From Rhizobacter sp. SG703 (GTDB taxonomy: Bacteria > Pseudomonadota > Gammaproteobacteria > Burkholderiales > Burkholderiaceae_C), in assembly GCF_012275445.1 (NCBI RefSeq), contig NZ_JAAZQK010000005.1:372001-436000 (forward strand): a stretch of DNA of 64,000 nt, given 5' to 3'. The notes under the pieces were generated by a model, which did no database searches, was not told the origin of the DNA, and saw nothing but the letters and a program-made list of their open reading frames with translations. Numbering within the stretch: the first letter of the stretch is position 1; each line of letters starts with the position of its first letter. Shown here in pieces: positions 42,032 through 57,973 of this stretch. Position numbers and translations under genes: made by a program.

Positions 42032-43816
42032 ATGCAACGACGCAGCTTTCTCGGGGCCGCCTTGAGCCCCGTCGCCCTGGCCGCCTGCGGTGGCGGCGAT
42101 GACGACAACCCGGCACCGCCGGCCCCGCCCACCGCGCAGGGCACCGCGATCGACGCGATGAAACGCGCGGTCGCCTACATGGACGAAAAGGTCTCGTACC
42201 GCGGCGGCTACGTCTGGTCGTACTCGCCGGACCTGACGCAGACCTTCGGCGAGATGGAGGCCAAGCGCACGATGTGCTGGATCCAGCCGCCCGGCACGCC
42301 GTCGGTCGGCAACGTGTTCCTCGACGCGTATCACGCGACCGGCGACGAGCGCTTCTACCAGGCGGCCGAGCGCACCGCGCTCGCGGTCGTCGCGGCGCAG
42401 CATGCCTCGGGCGGCTGGAACTACATCCACGACTTCGCCGGCGAAGACTCGCTGAAGCACTGGTACGAGACCATCGGCAAGAACGGCTGGCGCCTCGAGG
42501 AATTCCAGAACTACTACGGCAACGCCACCTTCGACGACGCCGGCACCGCGGTCGCCTCGCAGCTGATGCTGCGCATGTGGCTCGAGAAGAAGGACGCGCG
42601 CTTCGAAGCGCCGCTGAATCGAGCCATCGATTTCATCAAGCAGGCCCAGTTCGGTGCCGAGCTCGGCATCGCCAACGGCGGCTGGCCGCAGCGCTTCCCG
42701 CATTACGCCGGTTCGAAGGCCGGCATGCCGCAGCCGAACCCCGAGCAGCTCCCGGCCGGTGCGCATGCCGGCATGGAGGATGGCGACTACACGCTGCACG
42801 TCACCTTCAACGACGACGTGATGGGCGAGAACATCAAGTTCCTGACGATGTGCGTGATGGCACTCGGCCGCACCGACCTGCTGGACAACATCGGCCGCGC
42901 GATGGAGTGCATGCGCGCGATGCAGCAGCCCGGGCCGCAGGCCGGCTGGAGCCTGCAGCACCTGTCGCGCGAGACGAACGGCCGCCCGGCCGGCGCCGCC
43001 GCCGGCGCGCGCACCTACGAGCCGCGCTCGCTGGCCACGCACACCACGCAGACCAACATCCAGCAGCTGTTCCACTACTTCACGCTGACCGGCGACCGCA
43101 AGTTCCTCGCGCGCATCCCCGAGGCCATCGCGTGGCTGAAGACGGTGCCGCTGCCGGCCGATGCGGTGCAACGCAATGCCTTGCTCAACGGCCGCACGCA
43201 TGCCACCTTCATCGAGCTCGACAGCAACGAGTCGCTGTACGTGCACCGCTACGGCTCCAACATCCACAACGGCGCCTACTTCGCCGACAAGGACCTGACG
43301 AACACGCTGAGCCACTACTCGGCTGGGCGGTCGATCGACATCGCCGGGCTGCAGAAGCGGTATGACGAGCTGAGCGGCATGAGCGACGCGGCGGTGGCCG
43401 AGCTGGTGGCGCGCTCGCCACTGAAGGCGACGCAGCCGACCGCGCTGCCGAAATACTTCGGCATCCGCGAGGTCGATTTCCCCGACCTGTTCGCGGGCGC
43501 GAAGATGACGACACCGGTGGTGCCGCAGACCGAGGTCGACACGCTGGTCGCCGACCTCGGCACGAAGAACTACTGGACGGCCCCGGTGCCCGAGGTGGTG
43601 AACCCCTACCGCGGCGACGGGCCGGCGACGCCGTACACCGGCACCGCCTACCGCAGCAAGCATGTGGGCGACATCTACGACACCTCGCCGTACCCGGCCG
43701 ACAACCCGCCGGACATCGCGCCCTACGTGAAGCGCGACAAGCCGCAGTTCATCGTGACGGCGGATGTGATCCGGCGCCTCGGACGGCTGATCGCGTTCGT
43801 GTCACCGGTGGTCTGA
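42032..43816 (+). CDS. Pectate lyase, PelA/Pel-15E (PL10) family lipoprotein
   Basis: A 594-residue polysaccharide lyase that should cleave polygalacturonate by beta-elimination. The start MQRRSFLG is Tat-like, followed by lipobox ALAAC (Cys19) and a GGGDDD/Pro-rich linker, so it is probably exported and lipid-anchored at the cell surface or periplasm. The (alpha/alpha) toroid domain shows the PL10 hallmarks GGWNYIHD, ANGGWPQRFPHY and TFNDDVM. About 200 C-terminal residues exceed the usual lyase domain. AGGAGG precedes ATG 42032. No other pectin-degradation gene is adjacent. Its 3' end overlaps the VanW gene by 15 bases. Confidence 0.87.
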   Translation: MQRRSFLGAALSPVALAACGGGDDDNPAPPAPPTAQGTAIDAMKRAVAYMDEKVSYRGGYVWSYSPDLTQTFGEMEAKRTMCWIQPPGTPSVGNVFLDAYHATGDERFYQAAERTALAVVAAQHASGGWNYIHDFAGEDSLKHWYETIGKNGWRLEEFQNYYGNATFDDAGTAVASQLMLRMWLEKKDARFEAPLNRAIDFIKQAQFGAELGIANGGWPQRFPHYAGSKAGMPQPNPEQLPAGAHAGMEDGDYTLHVTFNDDVMGENIKFLTMCVMALGRTDLLDNIGRAMECMRAMQQPGPQAGWSLQHLSRETNGRPAGAAAGARTYEPRSLATHTTQTNIQQLFHYFTLTGDRKFLARIPEAIAWLKTVPLPADAVQRNALLNGRTHATFIELDSNESLYVHRYGSNIHNGAYFADKDLTNTLSHYSAGRSIDIAGLQKRYDELSGMSDAAVAELVARSPLKATQPTALPKYFGIREVDFPDLFAGAKMTTPVVPQTEVDTLVADLGTKNYWTAPVPEVVNPYRGDGPATPYTGTAYRSKHVGDIYDTSPYPADNPPDIAPYVKRDKPQFIVTADVIRRLGRLIAFVSPVV

Positions 43817-45514
43817 GGCGGCCGTCTCGTAGAGGGCCAGCGTCAGCGCGAGCGTGTCGCCGGCCGGCACCAGGCGCAGGCCCGGTGTGCGGGGATCCAA
43901 CCCGCACGCCGGCGTTGCGATGACCGGCAGACCGCGCGCGAGGCCCTGAAGCAGCCAGCGCGGCGCATGCTCGACATGCGCCGGCAGCACCACGGCACCG
44001 ATGTCGCGCCACGGGTCGCCCGCATCGAGTGGCACCTGCTCGAGGCCCTGCCAGAAGCCGGGCGACTCGCTGGCGCGGCCGAGCACGGCCAGCGGCAGCC
44101 CGAGCGCCCGGCAGGCGTCGCGCAGCGCGGGTGCGCCCTTGCGCGCCAGCGACGAGGCCGGAAAGAGCAGCGTGCCGCCGCGCGCCGAAGGCGTTGCCGC
44201 GGGTCGGTCCCAGTCGAGAAGGCCCACCTGATGGAGGCCGCGGCTCCGCAACCAGCGGGCGACCGCATGGTGCGGCGTCAGCACGCGAACCGCGCCCCGC
44301 AGCGCCTTCCACTCGGCATCGACGCGCCAGTCCGGCGCACGGTACTCGCGCAGGCCGGCCGCGGTCGGTTCGCCGGCCTGGTCGTCCAGCTGCTGATGCA
44401 GCATGCGCAGCGGCGACCGGGTCATCATCACCGTCACGCGGCGGCCGCCGAGCGCGCCGCGGCGCTGCAGCTCGGCCAGCGCATCGACCGGAACGATCAG
44501 TTCGTCGGCCTCGGTCGGCACCCGCGCGAGCCAGGCCGAGGCACGCGCATCGCAGGCGGCGATCAAGTGGTGCTGGCGCCGGGCCGGCCGATGACGGCAG
44601 GCGCGCGCCGCGAGCCGATGCCAGCGCTCGGTCAGGCCGGCCGGCCCGGTCGGCCATAGCGCGCGAAGGCGGATGCCGCGAGCGGCGAGCCAGGTGTCGA
44701 ACTCCGGCCAGCCGGCCACCGGCATCACGGCGACCCGTTCACCGACGGGGCGCGAAGCCACGCGGCGCAGGCAATCCGTCTGCGCGCAGTCCAGACAGTC
44801 GTGCGCCGGCGGCCGGCGGTCGGGCTCGATCGGAACGGTCCGTGCTGACCGCGCTGGCGGCGATGCACCGCGCAGCCGGACGATCAAGCGCTCGCCGTCG
44901 AGCCGCGCCTCGACGACGACACGCTGCGGCAGCGCGAAGCGCAGGTCGAGGTAGTTCCAGAACACCGTCGCGTCGCGCCGTGCCTCGGCCTGCGAGCCCG
45001 GCACGGCACGCGAATGCGGATGGCGCTCGACGATCCGCGCCCCGGCGTCGAGCGCCACGGCATACAGCGCATTCGACAGCTGGCACAGGCCCCCGCCGAT
45101 GCTCGCGATCAGGCACCCCTCGCGCAACTCCCGGCCGGGAACGAAGCCGCGGCGACAGGTCGGGGCGCCGATCGCATGCCAGAAGCTGAAGACTTCGCCG
45201 GGTTGCACGACGAGTCCGTCGAGCCGCGAGGCTGCCGTCCGCAGGTTGTGGACCTTGCCGGCGGTCAGCGGCCATTCGTGCGGCGCGTGTTGCGTCCACA
45301 ACGGCGTGATGCACTCGGCACGCACCGGGTCCTGCGATGTCGATCGGGTGGTCGCGAAGCGGGTGCCGTTCCATCGGTCGACCAGGTCGCGACCGCGGCG
45401 CATCCAGCGCAGGCCCTCGGCACGCCATGCGAAGTCGAGGGCCCGAAGGCGAGAGGTCCACCAGCCTGACGCGGCCGGCATCGAGGAAGCGGGGAGGGGA
45501 GAGATGTCGTGCAT
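43802..45514 (-). CDS. VanW-like protein fused to a glycosyltransferase-like C-terminal domain
   Basis: A 570-residue protein. Residues about 60-245 match the VanW family (LRTAASRLDGLVVQPGEVFSFWHAIG, GFVPGRELREG, GGGLCQLSNALYAVALDAG, ERHPHSR), named from vancomycin-resistance clusters but of unknown function. A Cys-containing linker HDCLDCAQTDCLRR follows. Residues about 320-570 look like a group 1 glycosyltransferase: an IAACDARASAWL region, then TLLFPASSLARKGAPALRD and VLPAHVEHAPRWLLQGLARGLPVIATPACG, where the GT4-type E-x7-E is not obvious. No signal peptide. Start ATG 45514 chosen by the domain onset; weak SD. Confidence 0.72.
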   Translation of the reverse strand: MHDISPLPASSMPAASGWWTSRLRALDFAWRAEGLRWMRRGRDLVDRWNGTRFATTRSTSQDPVRAECITPLWTQHAPHEWPLTAGKVHNLRTAASRLDGLVVQPGEVFSFWHAIGAPTCRRGFVPGRELREGCLIASIGGGLCQLSNALYAVALDAGARIVERHPHSRAVPGSQAEARRDATVFWNYLDLRFALPQRVVVEARLDGERLIVRLRGASPPARSARTVPIEPDRRPPAHDCLDCAQTDCLRRVASRPVGERVAVMPVAGWPEFDTWLAARGIRLRALWPTGPAGLTERWHRLAARACRHRPARRQHHLIAACDARASAWLARVPTEADELIVPVDALAELQRRGALGGRRVTVMMTRSPLRMLHQQLDDQAGEPTAAGLREYRAPDWRVDAEWKALRGAVRVLTPHHAVARWLRSRGLHQVGLLDWDRPAATPSARGGTLLFPASSLARKGAPALRDACRALGLPLAVLGRASESPGFWQGLEQVPLDAGDPWRDIGAVVLPAHVEHAPRWLLQGLARGLPVIATPACGLDPRTPGLRLVPAGDTLALTLALYETAASDHR

Positions 45515-45584
45515 GCCGGCGAATGTGCCGGTCGGTCGCGAGGCGGACGCGAAGTCCGTGTGAAGCGCGCGAGAACGGACCGGC

Positions 45585-46445
45585 TCAGCCGAGTTCCCGG
45601 CTCGCCAGCGCCGCCGCCGCGGCGCGCGTCTCCACGCCGAGCTTCTCGAACACATGCTCGAGGTGCTTGTTCACGGTGCGCGGGCTCATGCCGAGGATCT
45701 CGCCGACGTCGCGGTTGGTCTTGCCTTTGGCGATCCACGACAGCACCTCGGTCTCGCGCGGCGTCAGCGACGCGGTGCTCAGGCGTGTCGGCAGCATGTC
45801 GCTCGCGGCCTGCAGGCTCAGCAGCAGCATGCGCTCGCCCAGCCCGACCGCGCCGGCATGGCGCACTGCCAGCACGCGGCCGTCCTCACCGATGGAGCGG
45901 TGCTCCATCGAACCATCACCGGTCCACGCCGGCGGCAGGCCCTCAGGGTGGAACTCGCTCAGCCACGCCGCTGCCTGCGGCGAGCGCCACGCCACGCGCC
46001 CCTGCGCATCGAGCACCAGCACGCCGTGCCCGCCGACATCCACCGCCTCGCGCGCGAGCCGCACCGCGCGCGCATTGCGCACGTGCGTGGCCAGCCGCAC
46101 CAGCACCTCCTGCGCCCGCACCGGCTTCACGACGTAGTCGACGCCCCCGCTCTCGAAGCCTTCGACGATGTGCGGCGTCTCCGACAGGCCGGTCATGAAG
46201 ATCACCGGGATGTGCGACAGCGCCGGGTCTCGCTTGATGCGCCGGCAGGTCTCGAAGCCCGACAGGCCCGGCATCAGCGCGTCCAGCAGGATCGCATCGG
46301 GCGTCGCGAGGTCGAGCCGCGCGAGCGCCGATTCGCCGTCGCGCGCGACCAGCACCGTGTAGCCCTCGGCCTCGAGCGACACGCACAGCGCGCCCAGCGA
46401 CTGCGGCGCATCGTCGACCACCAGCACCACCGGCGACGCGCTCAC
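45585..46445 (-). CDS. LuxR-type response regulator partner of the NCS1-sensor kinase
   Basis: A 286-residue regulator with receiver (residues 5-120; acidic pair Asp11/Asp12, phospho-acceptor Asp55 in ILLDALMPG, Lys107 in YVVKP), a PAS-like middle segment (about 130-215) and a LuxR/NarL helix-turn-helix (about 222-286; LTPRETEVLSWIAKGKTNRDVGEIL). The GTG start overlaps the kinase stop in a GTGA junction, so the two are translated together and form a two-component pair. The likely target is the divergent urtA/fmd operon promoter. All phosphorylation residues are intact. Confidence 0.92.
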   Translation of the reverse strand: MSASPVVLVVDDAPQSLGALCVSLEAEGYTVLVARDGESALARLDLATPDAILLDALMPGLSGFETCRRIKRDPALSHIPVIFMTGLSETPHIVEGFESGGVDYVVKPVRAQEVLVRLATHVRNARAVRLAREAVDVGGHGVLVLDAQGRVAWRSPQAAAWLSEFHPEGLPPAWTGDGSMEHRSIGEDGRVLAVRHAGAVGLGERMLLLSLQAASDMLPTRLSTASLTPRETEVLSWIAKGKTNRDVGEILGMSPRTVNKHLEHVFEKLGVETRAAAAALASRELG

Positions 46446-49400
46446 AGGGCCTCCGTCGACAGGTCGCGCAGCGCCTGCGTCAGCCGGTCGAGCAGCGCGT
46501 CGAGCTCGAATCGCTCCGCCAGCAGCCGCATCGCGCGCAGCTCGGCCTGGGCGGTCGGGTGCAGCGCCGTCGCGGCGTCGAGCGCGGCCTGAACGCCTTG
46601 CAGGTGACCGAGCCGCACCAGCCGGATCAGGTCGCCGACCAGTTCGGCCGGCAGCGCCGTCGCGCCGGACTGCCCGGGCGCGCCGGCGGCCTCGGCCGCG
46701 GCCCAGTTCGGCAGCGCCAGCTCGGCCAGCCACTCGATCTGCAGGTGCCGCTGCAGCATGTCGAGCAGCTCCGATTCGATCACCGGCTTGTCGACGAAGC
46801 CCTGGCAGCCGGCGGCGGCCAGCTTGTCGGCCTGGTTCTCGAACGCGTTCGCCGACACCATCAGGATCGGCACGTGCAGCAACCCGGCCGCGCGGATCTG
46901 GCGTGCCGTCTGCCAGCCATCCATGTCGTCCATCGAGACGTCGAGCAGCACCGCATCGGGGCAGTCGTCCAGCACGCTCTCCAGGCATTCGCGGCCGCTC
47001 GCCGCTTCGCGGATGCGAAAGCCCAGCGGCATCAGCAGGCCGGCCAGCATCTGGCGCTGCGTCGGCTGGTCGTCCACCACCAGCAGGCTGCGCCGCGGCC
47101 CGAGGTAGCCGGTGACCGGCCGGTGCGTGCGCCGCGGCAGCATCGGCGCGCTGATCTCGCGCAGGTACAGCCGGGCGGTGAAGGTGCTGCCCTGGCCAGG
47201 CGCGCTCTTCAACGACAGCTCGCCGCCCATCAACTGCGTCAGCAGGTGCGTGATCGTCAGCCCGAGGCCGGTGCCCGGGTCGCCGGTGCGCCGGCCGGCG
47301 CTGCCGCGCTCGAACGGCAGGAAGATGCGCTCCTGGTCCTGCGTCGCGATGCCGATGCCGGTGTCGATCACCTCGAAGCGCGCCAGCTCCAGCCGGTAGT
47401 CGAGCCGCAGCGTCACGCTGCCGCGGTCGGTGAAGCGCACCGCGTTGCTCAGCAGGTTGATCAGGATCTGGCGCAGCCGCTTCGCGTCGGCGTTCACATG
47501 GTCGGGCACGCGTCCGCTGGTCTGCAGCGTGAAGACCAGCCCTTTCGCCTCCGCCTGCGGCGCCACCATGCGCACCAGGTCGTCGAGGAACTCGTGCATC
47601 GGCAGCGGCGCCATGTCCAGCCGCAGCCGGCCGGCCTCGATGCGCGCCAGGTCGAGCAGCCCGTCGACCAGCCCGTGCAGGTGCTCGCCGCTGCGGTGGA
47701 TGGTGTCGACCGACGCCCGCCGCACGCCTTGCACCTGCTCGTCCTTCAGCAGGATCTGCGCGTAGCCGAGGATGCTGTTCAGCGGCGTGCGCAGCTCGTG
47801 GGTCATGCCGGCCACGTAGCGCGTCTTCGCCTGGTTGGCCGCCTCGGCCAGGTCCTTCGCGGCCTGCAGCGCGGCATCGGTGCGGCGGTGCGCATCGATC
47901 TCCTTCGTCAGCAGCTGGTTCTGCCGGTTCGATTCGTCCTGCGCCATGTGCCGGCTCTCGCTGCCCAGCACCACCCACCAGGCGCCGACGGCCGCGGCCA
48001 GCGACAGCAGCGCGAACACCTTCAGCAGCGGCGCCTTCAGCGCGTCCTGGGCGGTGGCGTGAAGCACGCCCTCCTGGTCATAGACGATGCCGAGGATCAC
48101 CGCCAGCAGCCCGATCAGCGATGCCGCCACCACCAGGTAGTGGGCGACCCGGAAGTTCACCCGCGATGCGAGCCGCTGCGGCAGCGCCGCGGCCAGCACC
48201 GCGCTCACCTGCTCGGCCGCGCGCGAATCGGTCTTGCAGCGGTCGTGGCAGCGCGACTCCAGCGTGCAGCACAGCGAGCAGATCGGGGCGCCGTAGGCCG
48301 GGCAGTGCGCCATGTCCTCGGATTCGAACGCGTTGTCGCAGACCGTGCAGCTGATGCTCTGGCCGGGCGCCCAGCGCGCGACGTCGCGCCGCGCCAGGTA
48401 CCAGCGCCCGCGCGTCGCCCACGCGAGCAGCGGCGACACCAGCATCGCGGTGGCCAGCGCGATGAACGGCGCGAAAGCCTGCGCGGCAGCGCCCAGCGCG
48501 CCGGCGTAGGCGACGATCGCGAGCACCGCTGCCGACAGCATCGCGCCCAGCCCGACCGGGTTGATGTCGTACAGGTGGGCACGCTTGAACTCGATGTGGC
48601 GCGGGCTCCAGCCGAGCGGCTTGTTGATGACGAGGTCGGCCACCAGCGCGCCGACCCAGGCGATCGCGACGTTGCTGTACAGCCCGAGCACCCGCTCCAG
48701 CGCCTCGAACACGCCGAGCGTCATCAGCAGCACCGCGATCAGCACGTTGAACACCAGCCACACCACGCGGCCCGGGTGGCTGTGCGTCAGCCGCGCGAAG
48801 AAGTTGGACCACGCGAGCGAGCCCGCGTAGGCATTGGTCAGGTTGATCTTCAGCTGCGACACCAGCACGAACAGCGTGGTCGCGCCGAGGACCCAGGCCG
48901 GGTTGTCGAACACGTAGCCGAAGCCGGCGAGGTACATCTGCGTGGGCTCGACCGCCTTCTCGGTCGGGATCTGGTGCTGCAGCGCGAGGAAGGCCAGGAA
49001 GGCGCCGCCCAGCATCTTCACCATGCCGGGCACGATCCAGCCGGGGCCGGCCACCAGCACCGCGGCCCACCAGCGGCGCCGGTTCGCCGGCGTCTTCTCG
49101 GGCAGGAAGCGCAGGTAGTCGACCTGCTCGCCTATCTGCACCACCAGCGAGAACGCGACCGTCGCCGCGGTGCCGAACATCAGCCAGCTGAAGCCGTTGC
49201 TGCCCGAGGCGCGGCCGACCAGCCCGGTGAAATCGACGAACACCTGCGGGTTCTTCGCGAGCACGAAGGCGTAGGGGCAGATCAGCAGGACGAGCCACAG
49301 CGGCTGCGTCCATAGCTGCAGCCGCGAGATCAGCGTGATGCCGTGCATCACCAGCGGCACGATGCCCAGCGACGACAGCAGGTAGCACAGCGACAGCGGC

Positions 49401-49858
49401 CAGTCGAAGTACATCTGCAGCGCGAGCGCGAGGATCGCCGCCTCGAGCGCCAGGAAGATGAAGGTGAAGCTCGCATAGACCAGCGAGGTCAGCGTCGAGC
49501 CGAGGTAGCCGAAGCCGGCGCCGCGCGTGAGCAGGTCCATGTCGACGCCGTACTTCGCGGCGTAGTAGCTGATCGGCAACCCGGTCAGGAAGGTGATCAG
49601 CCCGACCACGAGGATCGCCCACAGCGCGTTCGAGAAGCCGTAGCCGATCGCGATCGAGCCGCCAATGGCCTCGAGCGCGAGGAACGAGGTGGCACCGAAC
49701 GCGGTGTTCGCGACGCGGAACTCGCTCCATTTGCGGAAGCTGCGCGGCGTGTAGCGCAGCGCGTAGTCCTCGAGCGTCTCGTTGCCGACCCAGGTGTTGT
49801 AGTCCCGGCGGATGCGAAAGATCTTTTGCGTGGCCACGGACACCGGCTTCTCCGACAA
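46442..49858 (-). CDS. NCS1-type transporter fused to a hybrid histidine kinase
   Basis: A 1138-residue membrane sensor. Residues about 25-490 match a whole NCS1 nucleobase/cation symporter (N-terminal WVGNETLEDYALRYTP, about 12 helices, NLTNAYAGSLAWSN in the substrate region). A Cys-rich segment follows with eight Cys (504, 507, 519, 527, 530, 531, 537, 541) including CTVC and CSLCC, a probable metal or redox site. Two more helices (about 570-630) lead to HisKA with His687 in MTHELRTPLN, the ATPase (NLLSNAVRF, DTGIGI, GTGLGL), a receiver with Asp973 in LLDVSMDDMDGW, and a helical tail. Divergent from urtA, it probably senses the imported nitrogen compound. Confidence 0.92.
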   Translation of the reverse strand: MSEKPVSVATQKIFRIRRDYNTWVGNETLEDYALRYTPRSFRKWSEFRVANTAFGATSFLALEAIGGSIAIGYGFSNALWAILVVGLITFLTGLPISYYAAKYGVDMDLLTRGAGFGYLGSTLTSLVYASFTFIFLALEAAILALALQMYFDWPLSLCYLLSSLGIVPLVMHGITLISRLQLWTQPLWLVLLICPYAFVLAKNPQVFVDFTGLVGRASGSNGFSWLMFGTAATVAFSLVVQIGEQVDYLRFLPEKTPANRRRWWAAVLVAGPGWIVPGMVKMLGGAFLAFLALQHQIPTEKAVEPTQMYLAGFGYVFDNPAWVLGATTLFVLVSQLKINLTNAYAGSLAWSNFFARLTHSHPGRVVWLVFNVLIAVLLMTLGVFEALERVLGLYSNVAIAWVGALVADLVINKPLGWSPRHIEFKRAHLYDINPVGLGAMLSAAVLAIVAYAGALGAAAQAFAPFIALATAMLVSPLLAWATRGRWYLARRDVARWAPGQSISCTVCDNAFESEDMAHCPAYGAPICSLCCTLESRCHDRCKTDSRAAEQVSAVLAAALPQRLASRVNFRVAHYLVVAASLIGLLAVILGIVYDQEGVLHATAQDALKAPLLKVFALLSLAAAVGAWWVVLGSESRHMAQDESNRQNQLLTKEIDAHRRTDAALQAAKDLAEAANQAKTRYVAGMTHELRTPLNSILGYAQILLKDEQVQGVRRASVDTIHRSGEHLHGLVDGLLDLARIEAGRLRLDMAPLPMHEFLDDLVRMVAPQAEAKGLVFTLQTSGRVPDHVNADAKRLRQILINLLSNAVRFTDRGSVTLRLDYRLELARFEVIDTGIGIATQDQERIFLPFERGSAGRRTGDPGTGLGLTITHLLTQLMGGELSLKSAPGQGSTFTARLYLREISAPMLPRRTHRPVTGYLGPRRSLLVVDDQPTQRQMLAGLLMPLGFRIREAASGRECLESVLDDCPDAVLLDVSMDDMDGWQTARQIRAAGLLHVPILMVSANAFENQADKLAAAGCQGFVDKPVIESELLDMLQRHLQIEWLAELALPNWAAAEAAGAPGQSGATALPAELVGDLIRLVRLGHLQGVQAALDAATALHPTAQAELRAMRLLAERFELDALLDRLTQALRDLSTEAL

Positions 49859-50081
49859 CGACGGCAGTGTCGGCTCCTGCTTGCAAGAAGCGCTCCTGCC
49901 GCTTGCCCTGCGCTTGCGGCGCGAGTGTCGCCCGCTGCGGCGCGACCGGCCCTACGTTGATTGACGTATTCGGATTGCGCACGCCATCCGGGACAGTCGG
50001 CACCAGCGTGAACGACGCGGCACCGCCCAGGCTTGGTGCCGGCGCGTTCCGACGATGCCCTCAACCTGCCCGGAGAACCCC

Positions 50082-51350
50082 ATGTCCGACCATCGCAACG
50101 ACGACGTCCAGCCCGATTCGATGATGCAGCGCCGCCGCCTGCTGCAAGCCGCCGCGGCGCTGCCGCTGGCGGGCCTGTCCGGGCTGGCGTCGGCGCAGGC
50201 CTTCCCGACCGCCAAGGTGAACACGACGAAGCTGGCGGTCACCGACACCGAGGTGACGGTCGGCCAGTTGCATTCGGGCACCGGCACGATGGCGATTTCG
50301 GAGACCGGCTCGATCCAGGCCGAACAGCTCGCGATCGACCAGATCAACGCGATGGGTGGCGTGCTGGGCCGCAAGATCAAGGTGATCAAGGAAGACGGCG
50401 CCTCCGACTGGCCGACCTTCGCCGAGAAGTCGAAGAAGCTGCTGGTCAACGACCGCGTGGCCTGCGTGTTCGGCTGCTGGACCTCGGCGTCGCGCAAGGC
50501 GGTGCTGCCGATCTTCGAGAAGGAGAACGGCATGCTCTATTACCCGACCTTCTACGAAGGCCTGGAGCAGAGCAAGAACGTGATCTACACCGGCCAGGAG
50601 GCGACACAGCAGATCCTGTGGGGTCTCGACTGGGCGGCCAAGGAAAAGAAGGCCAAGACCTATTTCCTGGTCGGCTCCGACTACATCTGGCCGCGCACCT
50701 CGATGAAGATCGGTCGCAAGCACATCGAGGGGCACCTGGCCGGCAGCAAGGTGGTCGGCGAGGAGTACTACCCGCTGGGCCATACCAACTTCAACTCGCT
50801 GATCAACAAGATCAAGGTCGCCAAGCCCGACTGCATCTTCGTCGCGGTGGTGGGCGGCTCGAACGTCGCGTTCTACAAGCAGCTGAAGGCGGCCGGCGTC
50901 ACCGCCGACAAGCAGTTCCTGCTGACGATCTCGGTGACCGAAGACGAGGTGCTGGGCATCGGCGGCGAGAACATGGCCGGCTTCTACGCATCGATGAAGT
51001 ACTTCCAGTCGCTGGACAACGCGAACAACAAGGCCTTCGTGTCGGCGTTCCGGGCGAAGTACGGCCCGAGTTCGGTGATCGGCGACGTGACGCAGGCCGG
51101 CTACCTCGGGCCGTGGTTGTGGAAGGCGGCGGTCGAGAAGGCCGGCAGCTTCGACGTCGACAAGATCGCCGCGGCGTCGGCGGGCATCGAGCTGAAGACC
51201 GCGCCCGAGGGCTACGTGAAGGTGCACGAGAACCACCACCTGTGGAGCAAGACGCGCATCGGCATGGCGCAGGCGGACGGGCAGTTCAAGGTGGTGGCGG
51301 AGTCGCCCGGTTTGATCGAGCCGAATCCGTTCCCGAAGGGATATCAGTAA
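50082..51350 (+). CDS. urtA: Urea/short-chain amide ABC transporter substrate-binding protein
   Basis: A 422-residue periplasmic type I binding protein of the UrtA/FmdD family (Leu/Ile/Val-binding fold). A twin-arginine-like leader (RRRLLQAAAALPLAGLSG, ending SAQA) follows about 14 residues of hydrophilic start. The mature protein shows the family pattern VGQLHSGTGTMAISE, VFGCWTSASRKAVLP and YYPTFYEG. First gene of the urtABCDE-fmdAB run and divergent from the sensor kinase across 223 bases. Because fmdA formamidase is in the same run, amides such as formamide or acetamide, or urea, are the likely ligands. Confidence 0.93.
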   Translation: MSDHRNDDVQPDSMMQRRRLLQAAAALPLAGLSGLASAQAFPTAKVNTTKLAVTDTEVTVGQLHSGTGTMAISETGSIQAEQLAIDQINAMGGVLGRKIKVIKEDGASDWPTFAEKSKKLLVNDRVACVFGCWTSASRKAVLPIFEKENGMLYYPTFYEGLEQSKNVIYTGQEATQQILWGLDWAAKEKKAKTYFLVGSDYIWPRTSMKIGRKHIEGHLAGSKVVGEEYYPLGHTNFNSLINKIKVAKPDCIFVAVVGGSNVAFYKQLKAAGVTADKQFLLTISVTEDEVLGIGGENMAGFYASMKYFQSLDNANNKAFVSAFRAKYGPSSVIGDVTQAGYLGPWLWKAAVEKAGSFDVDKIAAASAGIELKTAPEGYVKVHENHHLWSKTRIGMAQADGQFKVVAESPGLIEPNPFPKGYQ

Positions 51351-51356
51351 GTTGGA

Positions 51357-51443
51357 CGAAGGGCTTCGACAGGCTCAGCCCGAACGGTGTGCATTCCGTT
51401 CGCCCTGAGCTTGTCGAAGGGTTCCCCTGAGCCTGCCGAAGGG
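51357..51443. repeat. REP/BIME-like repeat in the urtA-urtB intergenic region
   Basis: GAAGGGCTTCGACAGGCTCA (51358) is answered by inverted CCGTTCGCCCTGAGC then TTGTCGAAGGG (51396-51421) with an 8-base loop, and a third arm CCTGAGCCTGCCGAAGGG ends at 51443. This palindrome type is widespread in beta- and gammaproteobacterial intergenic DNA and may protect or attenuate the mRNA between urtA and urtB. Confidence 0.75.
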
Positions 51444-51474
51444 CCCCATCCACGGGCCTCACCAAGGACACACG

Positions 51475-52389
51475 ATGACCTTCTCCGAGATGCTGAACAT
51501 CGGCTTGATGCAGGGCTTCGCCGGCCTGAGCCTGTTCTCGGTGCTGTTGCTGATGGGCCTGGGCCTGGCCATCATCTTCGGGCAGATGGGCGTCATCAAC
51601 ATGGCGCATGGCGAGTTCATGACGATCGGTGCCTACACGATCTACTTCGTGTCGCACCTCGCCGAAAGCTACGCACCGAAGCTGGTGGCGGCGTACTTCC
51701 CGGTCGCGATCGTCGCGGCCTTCGGCTTCGCGTTCGCCGCCGGCTGGGCGGTCGAGTGGTTGTTCATCCGCCACCTGTACCGCCGCCCGCTCGACACGCT
51801 GCTCGCCACCTGGGGCCTGTCGCTCGGCATGCAGCAGATCTTCCGCTCGGCCTTCGGCGCGAAGGAAGTCAGTCCCACCTTGCCCGACTGGTTGATGGGC
51901 TCGTGGGCGCCGTCCGCCGGGCTCGACATCCCGATCAACGGCCTGTTCGTGATGGCGCTGACGCTGGTCGTCACCGGCGGCGTGCTGCTCGCGCTGTACC
52001 GCTCGCGCTGGGGGCTGCGGGTGCGTGCCACCGTCGCCAACCGCGTGATGGCGAACGCCACCGGCATCAACACCCGGCAGACCGACCGGCTGACCTTCGC
52101 GATCGGCTGCGGCATCGCCGGCGTGGCCGGCGCCGCCTTCACCACGATCGGCTCCACCGGCCCGACCAGCGGCTCGCTCTACATCGTCGACGCCTTCCTG
52201 GTGGTCACCTTCGGCGGCGCCGCCAGCCTGCTCGGCACCGTGGTGTCGGCCTTCGGCATCGCGCAGACCCAGTCGATCGCCGAGTTCTTCATCACCGGTT
52301 CGATGGCCAAGGTGCTGACGCTGTCGCTGATCGTGCTGATCCTGATGATTCGACCGCAGGGCCTGTTCGCGGCCAAGGTGCGGCGTTGA
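51475..52389 (+). CDS. urtB: Urea/amide ABC transporter permease 1
   Basis: A 304-residue inner-membrane permease of the LivH/UrtB family with about eight helices. The signature LGLAIIFGQMGVINMAHGEF (about 30-50) and the cytoplasmic GLRVRATVANRVMANATGIN loop are typical for contact with the ATPases. Works with urtC, urtD and urtE in importing the substrate delivered by urtA. Separated from urtA by the repeat at 51357, and 28 bases before urtC. Confidence 0.94.
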   Translation: MTFSEMLNIGLMQGFAGLSLFSVLLLMGLGLAIIFGQMGVINMAHGEFMTIGAYTIYFVSHLAESYAPKLVAAYFPVAIVAAFGFAFAAGWAVEWLFIRHLYRRPLDTLLATWGLSLGMQQIFRSAFGAKEVSPTLPDWLMGSWAPSAGLDIPINGLFVMALTLVVTGGVLLALYRSRWGLRVRATVANRVMANATGINTRQTDRLTFAIGCGIAGVAGAAFTTIGSTGPTSGSLYIVDAFLVVTFGGAASLLGTVVSAFGIAQTQSIAEFFITGSMAKVLTLSLIVLILMIRPQGLFAAKVRR

Positions 52390-52417
52390 AGGCCATCCTC
52401 ATCCACCAGGCATTCCG

Positions 52418-53623
52418 ATGACCCGCATCACGATGAACCGAATCAAGCCGTGGCTGGACCGCAGCGGCATGGGCAGCGTGCTGCTGCTCGCGCTGCTGCT
52501 GGCCGTGGTCTTCCCGCTGGCCTTCGACCTGTTCCGCCTCAACCTCGTCGGCAAGTACCTGAGCTATGCCTTCGTCGCGCTCGGCCTGGTGATGCTGTGG
52601 GGCTACGGCGGCGTGCTGAGCCTGGGGCAGGGCGTGTTCTTCGGCCTCGGCGGCTACGGCATGGCGATGTTCCTGAAGCTCGAAGCGAGCGACCCCGTCA
52701 CCACGAAGATCCAGTCGACGCCGGGCATCCCCGACTTCATGGACTGGAACCAGGTCACCGCGCTGCCTTTGTGGTGGGAGCCGTTCCGCCACTTCCCGTT
52801 CGCGTTGGTCGCGATCCTGGTGGTGCCGACGCTGCTCGCTTTCGTGATCGGCTTCGCGATGTTCAAGCGGCGCGTCGGCGGCGTGTACTTCGCGATCATC
52901 ACGCAGGCGGTCGCGCTGATCCTGACGGTGCTGATCATCGGCCAGCAGGGCTACACCGGCGGCGTCAACGGCATGACCGACCTCAAGACGCTGCTCGGCT
53001 GGGACACCCGCACCAACGGCGCGAAGTACATCCTGTACTTCCTGACGGTCGCGCTGCTGATCGGTGCCATCGTGCTGTGCAGCTCGATCCAGAAGAGCAA
53101 GCTCGGCACGCTGCTGCTCGCGATGCGCGACAAGGAAGACCGCGTGCGCTTCTCCGGCTACGACGTCGCGATGTTCCGGGTGTTCGCGTTCTGCCTGGCG
53201 GCGCTTCTCTCGTCGATCGGCGGCGCGCTGTTCACCTTGCAGGTCGGCTTCATGTCGCCGTCGCTGGTGGGCATCGTGCCGAGCATCGAGATGGTGATCT
53301 TCGCGGCGGTCGGCGGCCGCATGTCGCTGGTCGGCGCGGTGTATGGCGCGCTGCTCGTCAACTTCGGCAAGACCTATTTCTCCGAGAGCTTCCCCGACCT
53401 GTGGCTGTTCCTGATGGCCGCGATGTTCCTCGGCGTGGTGCTTGCGTTCCCCGACGGGCTGGCCGGGTTGTACGCGAACAAGCTGAAGCCGTGGTGGATG
53501 CGGCGCCGAAGCAGGCGCAGCGAAGCGACCGATCAGGCAACGGCCGCTTCCCCCGGCCGCCCGGGGGGGCCGGCCGGCACCCCCGCGGGGGGCAGGAGCG
53601 AAGCGACGTGGGGGCTGTCATGA
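52418..53623 (+). CDS. urtC: Urea/amide ABC transporter permease 2
   Basis: A 401-residue LivM/UrtC-type permease with about nine helices; motifs LVMLWGYGGVLSLGQGVFFG and the ATPase-contact loop LLAMRDKEDRVRFSGYDVAMFR are present. Family members end soon after LYANKLKPWW; here the frame runs on for about 38 residues of Arg/Ser/Gly/Pro-rich sequence (RSRRSEATDQATAASPGRPG onward) encoded by a GC-rich repeat at 53514-53616. The final TGA overlaps the urtD start (ATGA). The tail is probably non-native and cytoplasmic. Confidence 0.92.
   Translation: MTRITMNRIKPWLDRSGMGSVLLLALLLAVVFPLAFDLFRLNLVGKYLSYAFVALGLVMLWGYGGVLSLGQGVFFGLGGYGMAMFLKLEASDPVTTKIQSTPGIPDFMDWNQVTALPLWWEPFRHFPFALVAILVVPTLLAFVIGFAMFKRRVGGVYFAIITQAVALILTVLIIGQQGYTGGVNGMTDLKTLLGWDTRTNGAKYILYFLTVALLIGAIVLCSSIQKSKLGTLLLAMRDKEDRVRFSGYDVAMFRVFAFCLAALLSSIGGALFTLQVGFMSPSLVGIVPSIEMVIFAAVGGRMSLVGAVYGALLVNFGKTYFSESFPDLWLFLMAAMFLGVVLAFPDGLAGLYANKLKPWWMRRRSRRSEATDQATAASPGRPGGPAGTPAGGRSEATWGLS
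53514..53616 (+). repeat. GC-rich repeat element inside the 3' end of urtC
   Basis: Carries GGGGGCAGGAGCGAAGCGAC (53588-53607), whose exact 20-base reverse complement occurs in the repeat at 59872-59949; the opposite ends also match, with GATCAGGCAAC here and GTTGCTTGATC there. Internal CCCGGGGGGGCCGGCC tracts form strong hairpins. It codes for the odd urtC tail. Confidence 0.65.
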
Positions 53624-54363
53624 GCAACACCGACTTCGTGCTCGCGGTCGAAGACCTGACCGTCTCGTTCGACGGCTTCAAGGCGATCGACGCACTGACC
53701 TTGTACGTCGACAAGAACGAACTGCGCGTGATCATCGGCCCGAACGGTGCCGGCAAGACCACGCTGCTCGACCTGATCTGCGGCAAGACGCGCGCGAGCG
53801 CCGGCAGCATCAAGTTCAAGAACGCCGAGATGAGCCGGCTGCCGGAGTACCAGATCGTGCGCTCCGGCATCGGCCGCAAGTTCCAGACGCCGTCGATCTA
53901 CGAGAACCTCAGTGTGTTCCAGAACCTGGAGGTGTCGTTTCCGCGCGGGCGCGGCGTGTTCGGCGCACTGGCCTTCAAGCGTGACGACGAGGTGCGCGAC
54001 GCGGTGCAGTCGGTGGCCGCCGAGATCGGCCTGGCCGACCAGCTGCAGCTGGAGGCCGGCCTGCTGTCGCACGGCCAGAAGCAGTGGCTCGAGATCGGCA
54101 TGCTGCTGATGCAGGACCCGGAGCTGCTGATGCTCGACGAACCGATCGCCGGCATGAGCGTGCGCGAGCGCGAGCTGACGGCCGAGTTGCTGAAGCGCAT
54201 CTGCAAGGGCCGCTCGATGATCGTCATCGAGCACGACATGGAATTCGTCAAGCAGATCGCCCACAAGGTGACGGTGATGCACCAGGGAAAGATCCTCGCC
54301 GAAGGATCGATGGAGCAGGTGCAGGCCGACCCCCGCGTGATCGACGTCTACCTCGGTCATTGA
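53620..54363 (+). CDS. urtD: Urea/amide ABC transporter ATP-binding protein 1
   Basis: A 247-residue LivG/UrtD-type ATPase. Walker A GPNGAGKTT (about 39-47), a Q-loop near FQTPSIYENL, the diverged signature LSHGQKQWLEIG (Ser-His in place of the usual Ser-Gly, as in UrtD proteins), Walker B LLMLDEPIAGM and the switch His in VIEHDM. Energises the UrtBC permeases as a heterodimer with urtE. The ATG overlaps the urtC stop, so synthesis is coupled. Confidence 0.95.
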   Translation: MSNTDFVLAVEDLTVSFDGFKAIDALTLYVDKNELRVIIGPNGAGKTTLLDLICGKTRASAGSIKFKNAEMSRLPEYQIVRSGIGRKFQTPSIYENLSVFQNLEVSFPRGRGVFGALAFKRDDEVRDAVQSVAAEIGLADQLQLEAGLLSHGQKQWLEIGMLLMQDPELLMLDEPIAGMSVRERELTAELLKRICKGRSMIVIEHDMEFVKQIAHKVTVMHQGKILAEGSMEQVQADPRVIDVYLGH

Positions 54364-54373
54364 GGACACCGCA

Positions 54374-55063
54374 ATGCTCAACGTCAGGAACCTGCACGTC
54401 GCCTACGGCCAGAGCGAGGCCCTGCATGGCATCGACTTCCATGCGAACAAGAACGAGACGGTCGCGATCATGGGCCGCAACGGCATGGGCAAGACCACGC
54501 TGTTCAAGAGCCTGATGGGTGTGCTGCCGACCCGCTCGGGCAGCATCGAGGTCGACGGCCACGAGCTCACGAAGGACGAGAGCTTCCAGCGCGTTCGCAA
54601 GGGCCTGGCCTATGTGCCGCAGGGACGGATGATCTTCCCGGCGCTGACGGTCGAGGAGAACATCCAGACCGGCCTGGAGAACGCCGCGAGCCGGCGCATC
54701 CCCGACGAGATCTACGCGCTGTTTCCGGTGCTGTTCGACATGCGCTCGCGCAAGGGCGGCAACCTGTCGGGCGGCCAGCAGCAGCAGCTCGCGATCGCGC
54801 GCGCGCTCGTCACCGACCCGAAGGTGCTGCTGCTCGACGAGCCGACCGAAGGCATCCAGCCGTCGATCATCAAGGACATCGCACGTGCGCTGAACGAGAT
54901 CCGCAAGCGGCGCGAGATCACGATCGTCGTCTCCGAACAGGTGCTGAGCTTCGCGATGGACGTGGCCGACCGGTTGTTCGTCATCGAAGGCGGGCGGCTG
55001 GTGCACGAGAGCCCGCGCGCCAGCACCGACGTGCAGCGCATCAGGCAGTTCCTTTCCGTCTGA
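54374..55063 (+). CDS. urtE: Urea/amide ABC transporter ATP-binding protein 2
   Basis: A 229-residue LivF/UrtE-type ATPase with Walker A GRNGMGKTT (about 35-43), signature LSGGQQQQLAIAR, Walker B VLLLDEPTEGIQPSI and a switch region IVVSEQVL, where the usual His is replaced by Gln, a known feature of UrtE-like subunits. Begins 10 bases after urtD and is followed by formamidase after 40 bases. Confidence 0.95.
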   Translation: MLNVRNLHVAYGQSEALHGIDFHANKNETVAIMGRNGMGKTTLFKSLMGVLPTRSGSIEVDGHELTKDESFQRVRKGLAYVPQGRMIFPALTVEENIQTGLENAASRRIPDEIYALFPVLFDMRSRKGGNLSGGQQQQLAIARALVTDPKVLLLDEPTEGIQPSIIKDIARALNEIRKRREITIVVSEQVLSFAMDVADRLFVIEGGRLVHESPRASTDVQRIRQFLSV

Positions 55064-55103
55064 ATTTCCGTCCGCCCCCTCCCACATTCCCAGGAGCATC
55101 GCC

Positions 55104-56333
55104 ATGCCCGACACCCTGATCAAGGTCGACCTGAAGCAATCGCCGTACGAGAACGAGCAAGTCCACAACCGCTGGCATCCCGACATCCCGATGGCCTGCT
55201 GGGTCAAGCCTGGCGAGGATTTCGTGCTGGAGACCTACGACTGGACCGGCGGCTTCATCCAGAACAACGACAGCGCCGACGACGTGCGCGACATCGACCT
55301 GTCGATCGTGCACTTCCTGTCGGGCCCGGTCGGCGTGCATGGCGCCGAGCCGGGCGACCTGCTGGTGGTCGACCTGCTCGACATCGGCGCCAAGGCCGAC
55401 AGCCTGTGGGGCTTCAACGGCTTCTTCTCGAAGAACAACGGCGGCGGTTTCCTGACCGACCACTTCCCGTTCGCGCAGAAGTCGATCTGGGACATCCAGG
55501 GCATGTTCACCCGATCGCGCCACGTGCCGGGCGTCAACTACGCCGGGCTGATCCATCCGGGGCTGATCGGCTGCCTGCCCGACCCGACGCTGCTGGCGAA
55601 GTGGAACGAGCGCGAGGTCGGGCTGATCGCGACCGAGCCCGACCGCGTGCCGCCGCTCGCGAACCCGCCGTTTGCCGCGACCGCGCACATGGGCAAGCTG
55701 GGCGGCGATGCGAAGGCCAAGGCGGCCGCCGAAGGCGCGCGCACCGTGCCGCCGCGCGAGCATGGCGGCAACTGCGACATCAAGGACCTGTCGCGCGGCT
55801 CGAAGATCTACTTCCCGGTCTACGTGAAGGGTGCCGGCCTGTCGGTCGGCGACCTCCATTTCAGCCAGGGCGACGGCGAGATCACTTTCTGCGGCGCGAT
55901 CGAGATGGCCGGCTGGGTGCACATGAAGGTCGAGGTGATCAAGGGCGGGATGGCGATGTACGGCATCCGGAACCCGATTTTCCGGCCCAGCCCGATCACG
56001 CCGAACTACAACGACTACCTGATCTTCGAAGGCATCTCGGTCGACGAGCAGGGCAAGCAGCACTACCTCGACGTCAACGTCGCCTACCGCCAGGCCTGCC
56101 TGAACGCGATCGAGTACCTGACGAAGTTCGGCTACAGCAAGGCGCAGGCGTACTCGATCCTGGGCACCGCACCGGTCCAGGGGCACATCAGCGGCGTGGT
56201 CGACATCCCGAACTCCTGCGCGACGCTGTGGCTGCCGACGCAGATCTTCGATTTCGACATCCGGCCGAACGCCGGCGGGCCGGTGAAGTACATCCAGGGC
56301 GGACCGGACATGCCGATGTCGCCCGACCTCTGA
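55104..56333 (+). CDS. fmdA: Formamidase (acetamidase/formamidase family)
   Basis: A 409-residue cytosolic amidase hydrolysing formamide to formate and ammonia. Length and sequence match FmdA of Methylophilus: MPDTLIKVDLKQSPYENEQVHNRWHPDIP start region, GVHGAEPGDLLVVDLLDIG, the Cys-containing EHGGNCDIKDLSRGS (candidate active-site region) and a C-terminal VDIPNSCATLWLP. It follows the five transporter genes and precedes fmdB, which fits import then hydrolysis of short amides to supply nitrogen. CAGGAGC lies before the ATG. Confidence 0.95.
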   Translation: MPDTLIKVDLKQSPYENEQVHNRWHPDIPMACWVKPGEDFVLETYDWTGGFIQNNDSADDVRDIDLSIVHFLSGPVGVHGAEPGDLLVVDLLDIGAKADSLWGFNGFFSKNNGGGFLTDHFPFAQKSIWDIQGMFTRSRHVPGVNYAGLIHPGLIGCLPDPTLLAKWNEREVGLIATEPDRVPPLANPPFAATAHMGKLGGDAKAKAAAEGARTVPPREHGGNCDIKDLSRGSKIYFPVYVKGAGLSVGDLHFSQGDGEITFCGAIEMAGWVHMKVEVIKGGMAMYGIRNPIFRPSPITPNYNDYLIFEGISVDEQGKQHYLDVNVAYRQACLNAIEYLTKFGYSKAQAYSILGTAPVQGHISGVVDIPNSCATLWLPTQIFDFDIRPNAGGPVKYIQGGPDMPMSPDL

Positions 56334-56349
56334 GCCGCAAGCGCCGACC

Positions 56350-56676
56350 ATGCCGACCTACGACTACCGGTGCCCGCAGTGCGGGCCGTTCGATGCGCTG
56401 CGGCCCATGGCCGAGCGCGACGTGCCCGCCGATTGCCCGCGTTGCAAGATGCCGTCGGCGCGTGCCTGGGTGGCCGCGCCCCGGCTGGCCGACATGCCGC
56501 CCGAGCGGCGGTTCGCGCTGGCGACCAACGAGCGGGCGCAGCACGAGCCGAAGGAATCGGCCCGCTATCGCCATCCGGCGGGGTGTGGGTGTTGCGCCGG
56601 GCCGAAGCGCAGCGGCGAGGCGGCGAAGGCGCCGCGGTCATTCGCGGGGAAGCGCCCGTGGATGATCAGTCATTGA
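56350..56676 (+). CDS. fmdB: FmdB family zinc-ribbon protein
   Basis: A 108-residue protein with the FmdB N-terminal zinc ribbon: MPTYDYRCPQCGPFDALRPM, then DCPRC, giving two Cys pairs (about Cys8/Cys11 and Cys34/Cys37). FmdB follows formamidase in Methylophilus and was proposed as a regulator of the amidase genes; the activity is not established. A second Cys-rich CGCCAGP lies near the C-terminus. 16 bases after fmdA and last gene of the operon. Confidence 0.92.
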   Translation: MPTYDYRCPQCGPFDALRPMAERDVPADCPRCKMPSARAWVAAPRLADMPPERRFALATNERAQHEPKESARYRHPAGCGCCAGPKRSGEAAKAPRSFAGKRPWMISH

Positions 56677-56689
56677 GGACGCCACCTGG

Positions 56690-56896
56690 CTACATCTGCT
56701 TGGCCAGCTCCGGGCTGCGGCAGATCTCGTTGTTGTCGACGGTGACCCACTCGCCGCCCTTTTGCAGGCAGACCGTGCGCGCGGTCTGGTGGCGTTCGCG
56801 GATGCGGTCGGGGGCGGTGGCGATCCGGAACACCGCGCCGGCGACGGCGACGATGCTGATCAGCGCGAAAGCGGTGCGTGCGAAACGGGTGCCCAT
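56690..56896 (-). CDS. Small membrane-anchored hypothetical protein
   Basis: A 68-residue protein with an N-terminal hydrophobic segment (about 8-25) that could be an anchor or signal, then a short soluble part with Cys43 and Cys59 in TVCLQKGGEWV and NEICRSPELAK. The two Cys could form a disulphide in the periplasm. I do not recognise the family. It is convergent with fmdB (13 bases apart) and divergent from the next gene. Confidence 0.6.
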   Translation of the reverse strand: MGTRFARTAFALISIVAVAGAVFRIATAPDRIRERHQTARTVCLQKGGEWVTVDNNEICRSPELAKQM

Positions 56897-56987
56897 GGCG
56901 CTCTCCGGTGGAGTGGCAATTGTGGGGCATCGACTGCGGTTTTGCTGGCCCGCTAGCATCCCCACTTTTGCGCATGCGAGACACCCG

Positions 56988-57374
56988 ATGAAGCCTTCCC
57001 AGGCAGCCGCCATGTCAGATCGGCCGCGCGATGTCGCCGAACACTGGGCCGAGGACGCCGGCGACGACGACGCCGCCCAGCTCGACATCCCGCCGCACGC
57101 GACGCGCGAGCGCCGCTTCGAGATCTTCTGCAGCTTCGAGGTCGCCAACCCGCTGGGCGGCGACGATGCGGCCCATGCGCTGCGGGTGCTGGTCGACGGC
57201 GCCCAGGCCTGGACGCGCCGCGTCGCGACGCACGCCGGCAGCGATTCGCTGGACGTGCGGCTGCGCAGGGTCGTGCCGGTCGGCGAGCCGCTGCGGGTGA
57301 CGGCCCGCACCGAGGTGCACGGCGTGCGGCGGGTCCGCCTGAAGATCACCGCCGACGAGGAACTCGACGGCTGA
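56988..57374 (+). CDS. Hypothetical protein
   Basis: A 128-residue soluble protein with an acidic N-terminal third (AEDAGDDDAAQLD) and a basic, beta-rich C-terminal part (RRFEIFCSFEV, LRVLVDGAQAWTRRV, VRRVRLKITADEELDG). No membrane segment or known motif. GC-rich codon use agrees with a real gene. ATG 57012 is a possible shorter start. Family not recognised. Confidence 0.6.
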   Translation: MKPSQAAAMSDRPRDVAEHWAEDAGDDDAAQLDIPPHATRERRFEIFCSFEVANPLGGDDAAHALRVLVDGAQAWTRRVATHAGSDSLDVRLRRVVPVGEPLRVTARTEVHGVRRVRLKITADEELDG

Positions 57375-57392
57375 CCGCGGCGGGTCGGCGGT

Positions 57393-57970: not shown

Positions 57971-57973
57971 CAG

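Follow-up and report, generated by a model that had tools for sequence, protein, structure and literature searches.

What does a sensor kinase respond to when a whole transporter stands at its N-terminus, and which genes does it command? We analysed a window of 64,000 nucleotides from Rhizobacter sp. SG703 (contig NZ_JAAZQK010000005.1, positions 372,001 to 436,000 of the forward strand), in which the gene of a hybrid histidine kinase overlaps that of a response regulator and diverges from urtABCDE-fmdA, genes for the import of urea and short amides and for formamidase. An initial annotation had seen here an NCS1 symporter joined to a kinase through a Cys-rich segment, that is, a transceptor linking substrate binding or flux, gated by metal or redox state, to fmd/urt expression. 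Our results uphold the fusion and its linkage to urea and amide genes, add a shared predicted operator that also occurs before fmdA and amiE, and lend no support to the metal or redox gating. We consider it likely that the locus encodes a transceptor two-component system for urea and short-chain amides, which would activate urt and fmd.

An NCS1-type module joined to a hybrid kinase

A complete transporter fold precedes HisKA and HATPase_c within a single reading frame. In order, the kinase comprises an NCS1-type module (residues ~11-490), a segment with eight Cys (504-541), two transmembrane (TM) helices (~570-632), HisKA, HATPase_c and a receiver. Pfam matched the last three at 677-743, 791-899 and 926-1035 (Response_reg), and H687 and D973 are each kept in 129/131 relatives of at least 1000 residues, in agreement with the frame, domains and catalytic residues first annotated. 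The coupling to the regulator is likewise borne out: its GTG start overlaps the kinase stop in GTGA, and its product carries Response_reg and GerE matches, the combination of NarL/LuxR-type regulators.

We modelled residues 1-672 with AlphaFold2 from an alignment of 45 sequences (mean predicted local distance difference test, pLDDT, 74.4; predicted TM-score, pTM, 0.71). Up to residue 481 we interpret the helices as 12 TM segments, followed by a small beta/alpha Cys domain and by helices at 570-599 and 601-671, the two extra helices already noted after the Cys segment. Most ten-residue blocks of 51-480 have a pLDDT of 74-94; residues 1-40 stay under 50, and weaker blocks lie at 161-180 (58-64), 341-390 (51-63) and 421-430 (56). 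In a fold search of the PDB, ranks 1-5 were CodB and Mhp1, with the NCS1/LeuT fold (CodB, E 9.3e-9 and 1.1e-8, TM-score by target 0.77 and 0.74; Mhp1, TM-score by target 0.66-0.70). Further LeuT folds ranked below them, and the plant urea transporter DUR3 stood at rank 23.

The profile comparison was made with hhalign, in which 88 family members were set against proteins picked by script. It gave 99.3% (E 1.2e-20, 401 columns) for seven proteins from PF02133 loci and 3.2% for 19 proteins from SSF loci. An SSF/SLC5 identity, as in the CbrA family, is thereby ruled out, and Pfam scans of the window module and its relatives contained no SSF family. Because of the CodB and Mhp1 ranks and this profile result, we class the module as distantly NCS1-type and below Pfam detection. 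The NCS1 assignment therefore stands on fold and profile; the PF02133 domain search first proposed for it was negative, so that these comparisons were used instead. A PDB sequence search with the module gave no match.

Linkage to urea and amide genes and a shared predicted operator

UrtA, UrtB, UrtC, UrtE and FmdA exceed their NCBIfam cut-offs, and the divergent amide/urea import and hydrolysis operon is as annotated at the outset. A locus was scored as linked if at least one of three gene groups lay within 9.5 kb: urt, for which UrtA was required and UrtB too wherever the contig reached far enough; urease (UreA/C/D/G); or fmdA/amiE. This was the case in 77/80 closest relatives (the best 80 of 398 stretches that encode a relative in one genome collection), the sequence upstream of the other three extending over 14, 53 and 725 bp. 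It was also the case in 46/56 members of the class and phylum samples, and in 114/121 loci with at least 5 kb upstream. The sampled regions were all class matches except the window's own and 40 phylum regions (42/64 match rows) chosen for variety, not at random. In a held-out sample of the order, 29/36 loci were linked under a looser rule, by which the gene could lie anywhere in the stretch; 40 regions of 53 match rows had been fetched, and L190, L191, L192 and L195 were dropped as duplicates. The 9.5-kb counts omit L001 and L002, which duplicate the window gene and L083, and entries shorter than 750 residues or without an in-frame N-terminal half (kinase-less forms; L102, L109, L110). They include L090 and L091, which hold one gene twice and were both counted as misses, and L033 and L053, both counted from one assembly. 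This neighbourhood survey had been set beforehand as a refuting test, and the outcome that would have refuted the idea, a fusion unlinked to amide/urea genes in other genomes, did not occur.

UrtA is divergent from the kinase in 108 of the 114 loci with a UrtA match. Four of the other six overlap by 475-493 bp, which we take as over-long open reading frame calls, and L137 and L139 have another arrangement. Around 40 other transporters (158 kb in total; a weak control, its stretches being shorter), urt, urease and fmdA were found at no locus and an amiE-like gene at one. The Rhizobacter genome itself holds a second transporter-kinase, 59% identical in the N-terminal part, which lies beside urease genes (ureJ/HupE-like and ureB-like).

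Counting 8-mers in the regions between kinase and urtA revealed a palindrome with the consensus TACGTCA-N2-TGACGTA. Such a 7-2-7 inverted repeat has the spacing of NarL-type binding sites. The window copy, TACGTTG-AT-TGACGTA (TACGTTGATTGACGTA), departs from the consensus by 2 mismatches and is our predicted operator. Sites with at most 2 mismatches occur in 91/106 divergent regions, in 0/1060 mononucleotide and 0/1060 dinucleotide shuffles, and in 11/1050 non-overlapping segments of the same loci, a number consistent with fmdA/amiE sites (not traced individually). Outside the divergent regions, 140 loci (2.61 Mb) hold 40 such places: 23 before fmdA, 7 before amiE (L009, L010, L013, L015, L020, L034, L035), 4 before urtA, 5 before the kinase and 1 inside a kinase gene. 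The fmdA sites of L054, L056 and L069 were assigned by distance to tblastn places and that of L088 by reading the DNA. These 140 loci were selected for holding the kinase and many are close relatives, so the count covers neighbourhood genes and not whole genomes. In the Rhizobacter genome the degenerate operator TACGTYRNNYRACGTA has one exact match, at the window site. Among plasmid loci outside the discovery set, the operator is present with 1, 1 and 2 mismatches in L183, L187 and L185, and was not found in L184 and L186. As a family-wide feature it is rejected by the held-out sample (9/36 loci with at most 2 mismatches, against 1/360 shuffles); it characterises one part of the family, to which the window locus belongs. 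A related TACGCC-like palindrome lies upstream of the kinase in the urease-linked L106, L137 and L140, and could be a co-evolved variant.

The distance between the operator edge and a -10-like hexamer (xAxxxT) is exactly 23 bp in 33/68 regions toward urtA and in 38/68 toward the kinase. The next-best offsets reach 16 and 10 regions, respectively, and the median is 1; the 23-bp spacing is repeated at 19/23 fmdA operator sites. Because the hexamers stand at this distance, the operator would be centred near -43 of both predicted promoters, which is the position of a class II activator. The regulator might instead be a repressor relieved by phosphorylation, as the operator adjoins the place where each promoter should have its -35 region, a position from which repression is conceivable as well. 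However, no sigma-70 consensus promoter was found in 49800-50120, and the fixed spacing, present also before fmdA, fits a class II activator. Repression is for these reasons very unlikely, and we favour an activator.

The candidate ligand and the proposed route of the signal

We mapped the Mhp1 residues through one PF02133 protein (L143), which is aligned to Mhp1 and present in the hhalign template; residue numbers were checked on the alignment. In Mhp1 the side chains of S312 and T313 are Na+ ligands, and Q42, W117 and Q121 have substrate roles. S312 and T313 map to L336, a hydrophobic position, and K337, so that the Na+ side chains of NCS1 transporters are not found here; "symporter", as first annotated, is doubtful in the sodium sense. 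Q42, W117 and Q121 map to F59, F135 and E139, and N318 maps to N342. E139 (TM3) is Glu and N342 (TM8) is Asn in 140/140 sequences, E244 (TM6) is Glu in 139/140 with a gap in the distant L107, and K337 (TM8) is Lys in 139/140 with Arg in L107. All four are kept in 36/36 held-out relatives, and Q241 (TM6) is also near-invariant.

Our model suggests that a single fusion joined a hybrid histidine kinase to a stand-alone NCS1-type permease of urease and amide operons, itself presumably a urea/amide permease. Urea or an amide would be bound by the module at the central LeuT-type site, with E139, E244 and N342 as candidate polar ligands. The module would work without sodium because K337 occupies an Mhp1 Na+-ligand position, and may have retained transport. 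The change of state would reach the HisKA dimer by way of the small cytosolic Cys domain, predicted to be zinc-finger-like, and of the extra pair of membrane helices, and so drive the kinase, which would phosphorylate the NarL-type regulator from the overlapping gene. A regulator dimer would then bind the operator, about 43 bp upstream of both putative start sites, near 50004(+) and 49917(-), and activate urtABCDE-fmdA together with its own operon. If so, this would be a second LeuT-fold transceptor kinase beside CbrA, with another transporter family, linker and regulon. General rules of transporter-driven kinases would become testable, and the predicted operator gives a precise target.

The module might also merely anchor and dimerise a kinase that monitors nitrogen status, energy status or UrtABCDE activity. 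Operons of this sort are known to be under nitrogen control, the Methylophilus fmd cluster being repressed by high ammonia (review PMC10781810), and transport can be lost in kinase fusions, as Ks-Amt5 is described as binding ammonium without translocating it (PMC5764959). A mere anchor, however, would have no need of E139, E244, K337 and N342, which hardly vary either between deep branches or in the kinase-less forms, and we find this explanation unlikely. Alternatively, the ligand might be another nitrogen compound of the NCS1 range, such as cytosine, allantoin or hydantoin, with urt and fmd responding as these yield urea or formamide. The nearest folds, CodB (cytosine) and Mhp1 (hydantoin), would agree with this, and the neighbourhood counts covered urea and amide genes only. 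Yet in branches distinct from one another the module is found with urease, urt, fmdA and amidase, and the three Mhp1 substrate residues are replaced as listed above. Such a ligand seems improbable to us, and urea or a short amide is the one we prefer.

The eight Cys between module and kinase (504, 507, 519, 527, 530, 531, 537 and 541), clustered as initially described, are each conserved in at least 103/104 aligned sequences, which include two copies of genes already present and two kinase-less forms, and in 36/36 held-out sequences. The kinase-less L101 and L184 keep C504, C507, C527 and C530 (CxxC...CxxC) and are without 519, 531, 537 and 541; the kinase-less L086 form has all eight. This pattern suggests two four-Cys sites, of which the 504/507/527/530 set would be the older. 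The models show strands around the CxxC knuckle and a short helix, and pattern and secondary structure fit a treble-clef or zinc finger with one CxxC as knuckle and another at the start of a helix. Foldseek with the Cys domain gave no match at E<=0.001 (best E 0.45); many of its top 50 matches, none of them significant, are RING, FYVE, PHD, ZZ or FmdE zinc domains. The likeliest reading is a predicted structural zinc finger, with zinc as the presumed metal.

The gating by metal or redox state put forward at first would make this segment a sensor that controls the kinase. It would accord with the near-invariance of the eight Cys and with the joint lack of 519, 531, 537 and 541 in L101 and L184, as if a second metal site had been gained. 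However, kinase-less proteins also retain the CxxC...CxxC four, the strands and short helix of the models resemble a structural zinc finger (with the non-significant Foldseek result above), and the L086 form shows that the second set does not track the fusion exactly. Metal or redox sensing, possible in principle, has no support in this analysis and is quite unlikely; we keep the structural zinc finger.

Several results weigh against the proposed urea/amide transceptor. PF02133 misses the module at E<=10 (window module; whole genome) and is unmatched in 45 relatives at E<=1. The Mhp1 mapping depends on a single sequence and has gaps around TM6, the low-confidence model stretch 341-390 includes N342, and K337 is also present in kinase-less forms, so that it is not a sensor-specific change. 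After the receiver, residues 1041-1138 have no Pfam match, and a histidine phosphotransfer (HPt)-type motif was not seen there by eye; no HPt was recognised, so that the phosphate route to the regulator is a presumed one. None of the tested genes is nearby in 10/56 sampled and 7/36 held-out members, and many loci are closely related, so the counts are not independent. The held-out operator sites are confined to 7/21 urt-linked and 2/15 other loci, and nine scanned urease-linked loci without urt show 3 to 6 mismatches. With at most 1 mismatch the Rhizobacter genome has the degenerate operator at 2 places, against 4 for a reversed control, and thus no genome-wide enrichment. Finally, the support is wholly computational, and urea or a short amide is a candidate ligand.

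CbrA of Pseudomonas is, in the available parts of its description, an SLC5-STAC histidine kinase with 13 TM helices and histidine as substrate; K196 lies in its Na2 site, and histidine transport is sodium-independent and proton-dependent (PMC13022988). Like the window kinase it joins a complete LeuT-fold transporter to a histidine kinase and has a Lys at the sodium site (K196; K337 here), a likeness of site; the two Lys positions in the sequence are not equated. It differs by its SLC5 module and STAC four-helix linker, where the window kinase has an NCS1-type module and, in the model, a linker of the 8-Cys segment and a TM hairpin, and the latter has a NarL-type partner beside urt/fmd. At the STAC position our model shows the Cys domain and TM hairpin, no dedicated STAC profile search having been made. 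In Ks-Amt5, an ammonium transporter-histidine kinase, the transporter module likewise senses a nitrogen compound for a fused kinase, but it is an Amt module of unrelated fold with ammonium as ligand, as far as the available text describes it (PMC5764959). Mhp1 and CodB share fold and profile similarity over ~400 residues, and Mhp1 N318 is matched by N342; the window module differs in lying below Pfam detection, in its replaced Na+ ligands and several replaced substrate residues, and in its Cys tail and kinase.

Methylophilus fmdCABDEF likewise combines formamidase with a binding-protein-dependent importer of short amides and urea and is induced by formamide and urea; the available part of the report names only a putative positive regulator and mentions no transporter-kinase (PMC10781810). 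That regulator is given as FmdB in the passages of PMC13209695, in which "histidine kinase" and "two-component" are absent, and which describe urtABCDE-fmdA-amiE and growth on formamide in Pseudomonas veronii. For urtABCDE operon III of Ectopseudomonas guguanensis G3, a LuxR-type response regulator and, in a legend, a hybrid kinase are mentioned together with the urt genes; the available text describes no transporter domain, operator or function (PMC13296017). GrtK/GrtR of Burkholderia glumae was ruled out as a published member, being an ammonia sensor with no transporter fusion mentioned in the part available. Among the matches listed in searches of the open-access literature, no title or abstract opening describes an NCS1-kinase fusion or this system. 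Transceptor kinases are already known as a kind; distinct here are the transporter family, the linker and the predicted operator.

Origin, spread and further features

Kinase-less relatives occur inside a urease cluster (L101), directly before ureEFG-hupE-ureDABC on an Acinetobacter lwoffii plasmid (L184), upstream of fmdA and an amidase gene in divergent orientation to a kinase (the L086 form), divergent from a kinase (L186), and, in the distant L107, beside a gene read as nitrilase-like. In L186 and L086, permease and sensor of one family thus occur as a pair; L086 has an operator-like TACGTCGGATGACGTA between permease copy and kinase, and L186 has none. A tree made by a quick method, with three NCS1 proteins as outgroup, places all 67 fused sequences in a single clade (Shimodaira-Hasegawa-like approximate likelihood ratio test, SH-aLRT, 97); L107, L101 and the L086 form diverge before it. 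The L086 split has SH-aLRT 85, and the placement of L101 and L107, on long branches, is unsure. Because the fused sequences form one clade with the kinase-less forms below it, a single fusion of permease to kinase is the simplest reading. Tentatively, and with more doubt than we attach to the transceptor itself, the kinase-less proteins with their Cys tail may be an unrecognised sodium-independent family of bacterial urea/amide permeases. The kinase would be their sensory descendant by one fusion, by which a permease became a urea/amide sensor that spread over much of the phylum, with the doubled metal site of the tail as coupler and a Lys in Na2 acquired independently of CbrA. If the transceptor reading is right, a candidate urea permease family also comes into view, whose members with and without a kinase can be compared.

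Relatives were found in 18/369 genomes of the class (E<=1e-20), 50/300 of the order (E<=1e-20) and 55/398 of the phylum (E<=1e-5; about one in seven, three by short or partial matches only). Carriers of the locus include Pseudomonas simiae (L065) and Methyloversatilis universalis (L018). The transporter module was matched in 532 of 72,556 plasmid records, 342 of them Klebsiella and 78 Sinorhizobium, and five were examined. On those of Klebsiella (with fmdA), Shinella and Rhizobium the kinase is divergent from urtABCDE; the fourth is the Acinetobacter lwoffii plasmid, and the stretch of the fifth, labelled Acinetobacter baumannii, is without annotation. In the plasmid entries listed, the gene is labelled "ATP-binding protein", "response regulator", "ArcB" or "hypothetical protein", or lacks an annotation. 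If our reading is correct, a urea/short-amide sensor has long been overlooked in many proteobacteria.

Table 1 Positions of the features described, in the window unless a locus or record is named.
Feature	Position	Strand	Basis or remark
Hybrid sensor kinase, 1138 aa, TTG start	46442-49858	-	reading frame, Pfam, model
NCS1-type transporter module, residues ~11-490	48389-49828	-	fold search, profile comparison, conservation
8-Cys segment, residues 504-541	48236-48349	-	alignment conservation, model
Kinase residues 1041-1138, after the receiver	46445-46738	-	
LuxR/NarL-type response regulator, 286 aa, GTG start	45585-46445	-	reading frame, Pfam
Predicted operator, 7-2-7 inverted repeat	49953-49968		between kinase and urtA
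-10-like element GACAGT, toward urtA	49992-49997	+	23 bp from operator edge
-10-like element GACACT, toward kinase	49924-49929	-	23 bp from operator edge
urtA, urea/short-amide ABC (ATP-binding cassette) binding protein	50055 (or ATG 50082)-51350	+	TIGR03407 over cut-off
urtB, permease	51475-52389	+	TIGR03409 over cut-off
urtC, permease	52418-53623	+	TIGR03408 over cut-off
urtD, ATPase	53620-54363	+	frame, position, tblastn across loci
urtE, ATPase	54374-55063	+	TIGR03410 over cut-off
fmdA, formamidase	55104-56333	+	NF045496 over cut-off
Presumably FmdB-like zinc-ribbon protein, 108 aa	56350-56676	+	name assumed by us
VanW-domain protein	43802-45655	-	
Paralogous transporter-kinase of the same genome	G000:C6:313022-315010 (L083:7576-11088)		
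Klebsiella plasmid kinase, divergent from urtABCDE-fmdA	NZ_OM489433.1 71863-75243 (L183)		sole Klebsiella plasmid record examined of 342
Kinase-less transporter copies divergent from kinase	L186:8342-9986; L086:10459-10767		
Kinase-less homologue before urease genes	L184:9947-11554		
Module joined to a different kinase core	L103:7499-10156; L105:8163-10847		
Family kinase without transporter half, 618 aa	L109:8857-10713		

Variant architectures were also observed. In L103 and L105 the transporter-Cys-TM module is attached to another kinase core, which has no receiver, and two further receiver-like genes and fmdA are adjacent; the output half appears to have been exchanged. The L109 kinase is without the transporter half and keeps the TM part, with a Cys-rich stretch at its start. 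An Rfam scan of 43000-58000 gave no riboswitch and one chance-level small nucleolar RNA match (E 0.56). Directly downstream of the regulator gene lies that of the VanW-domain protein, which among the tblastn-scanned loci recurs only in L003 and L004.

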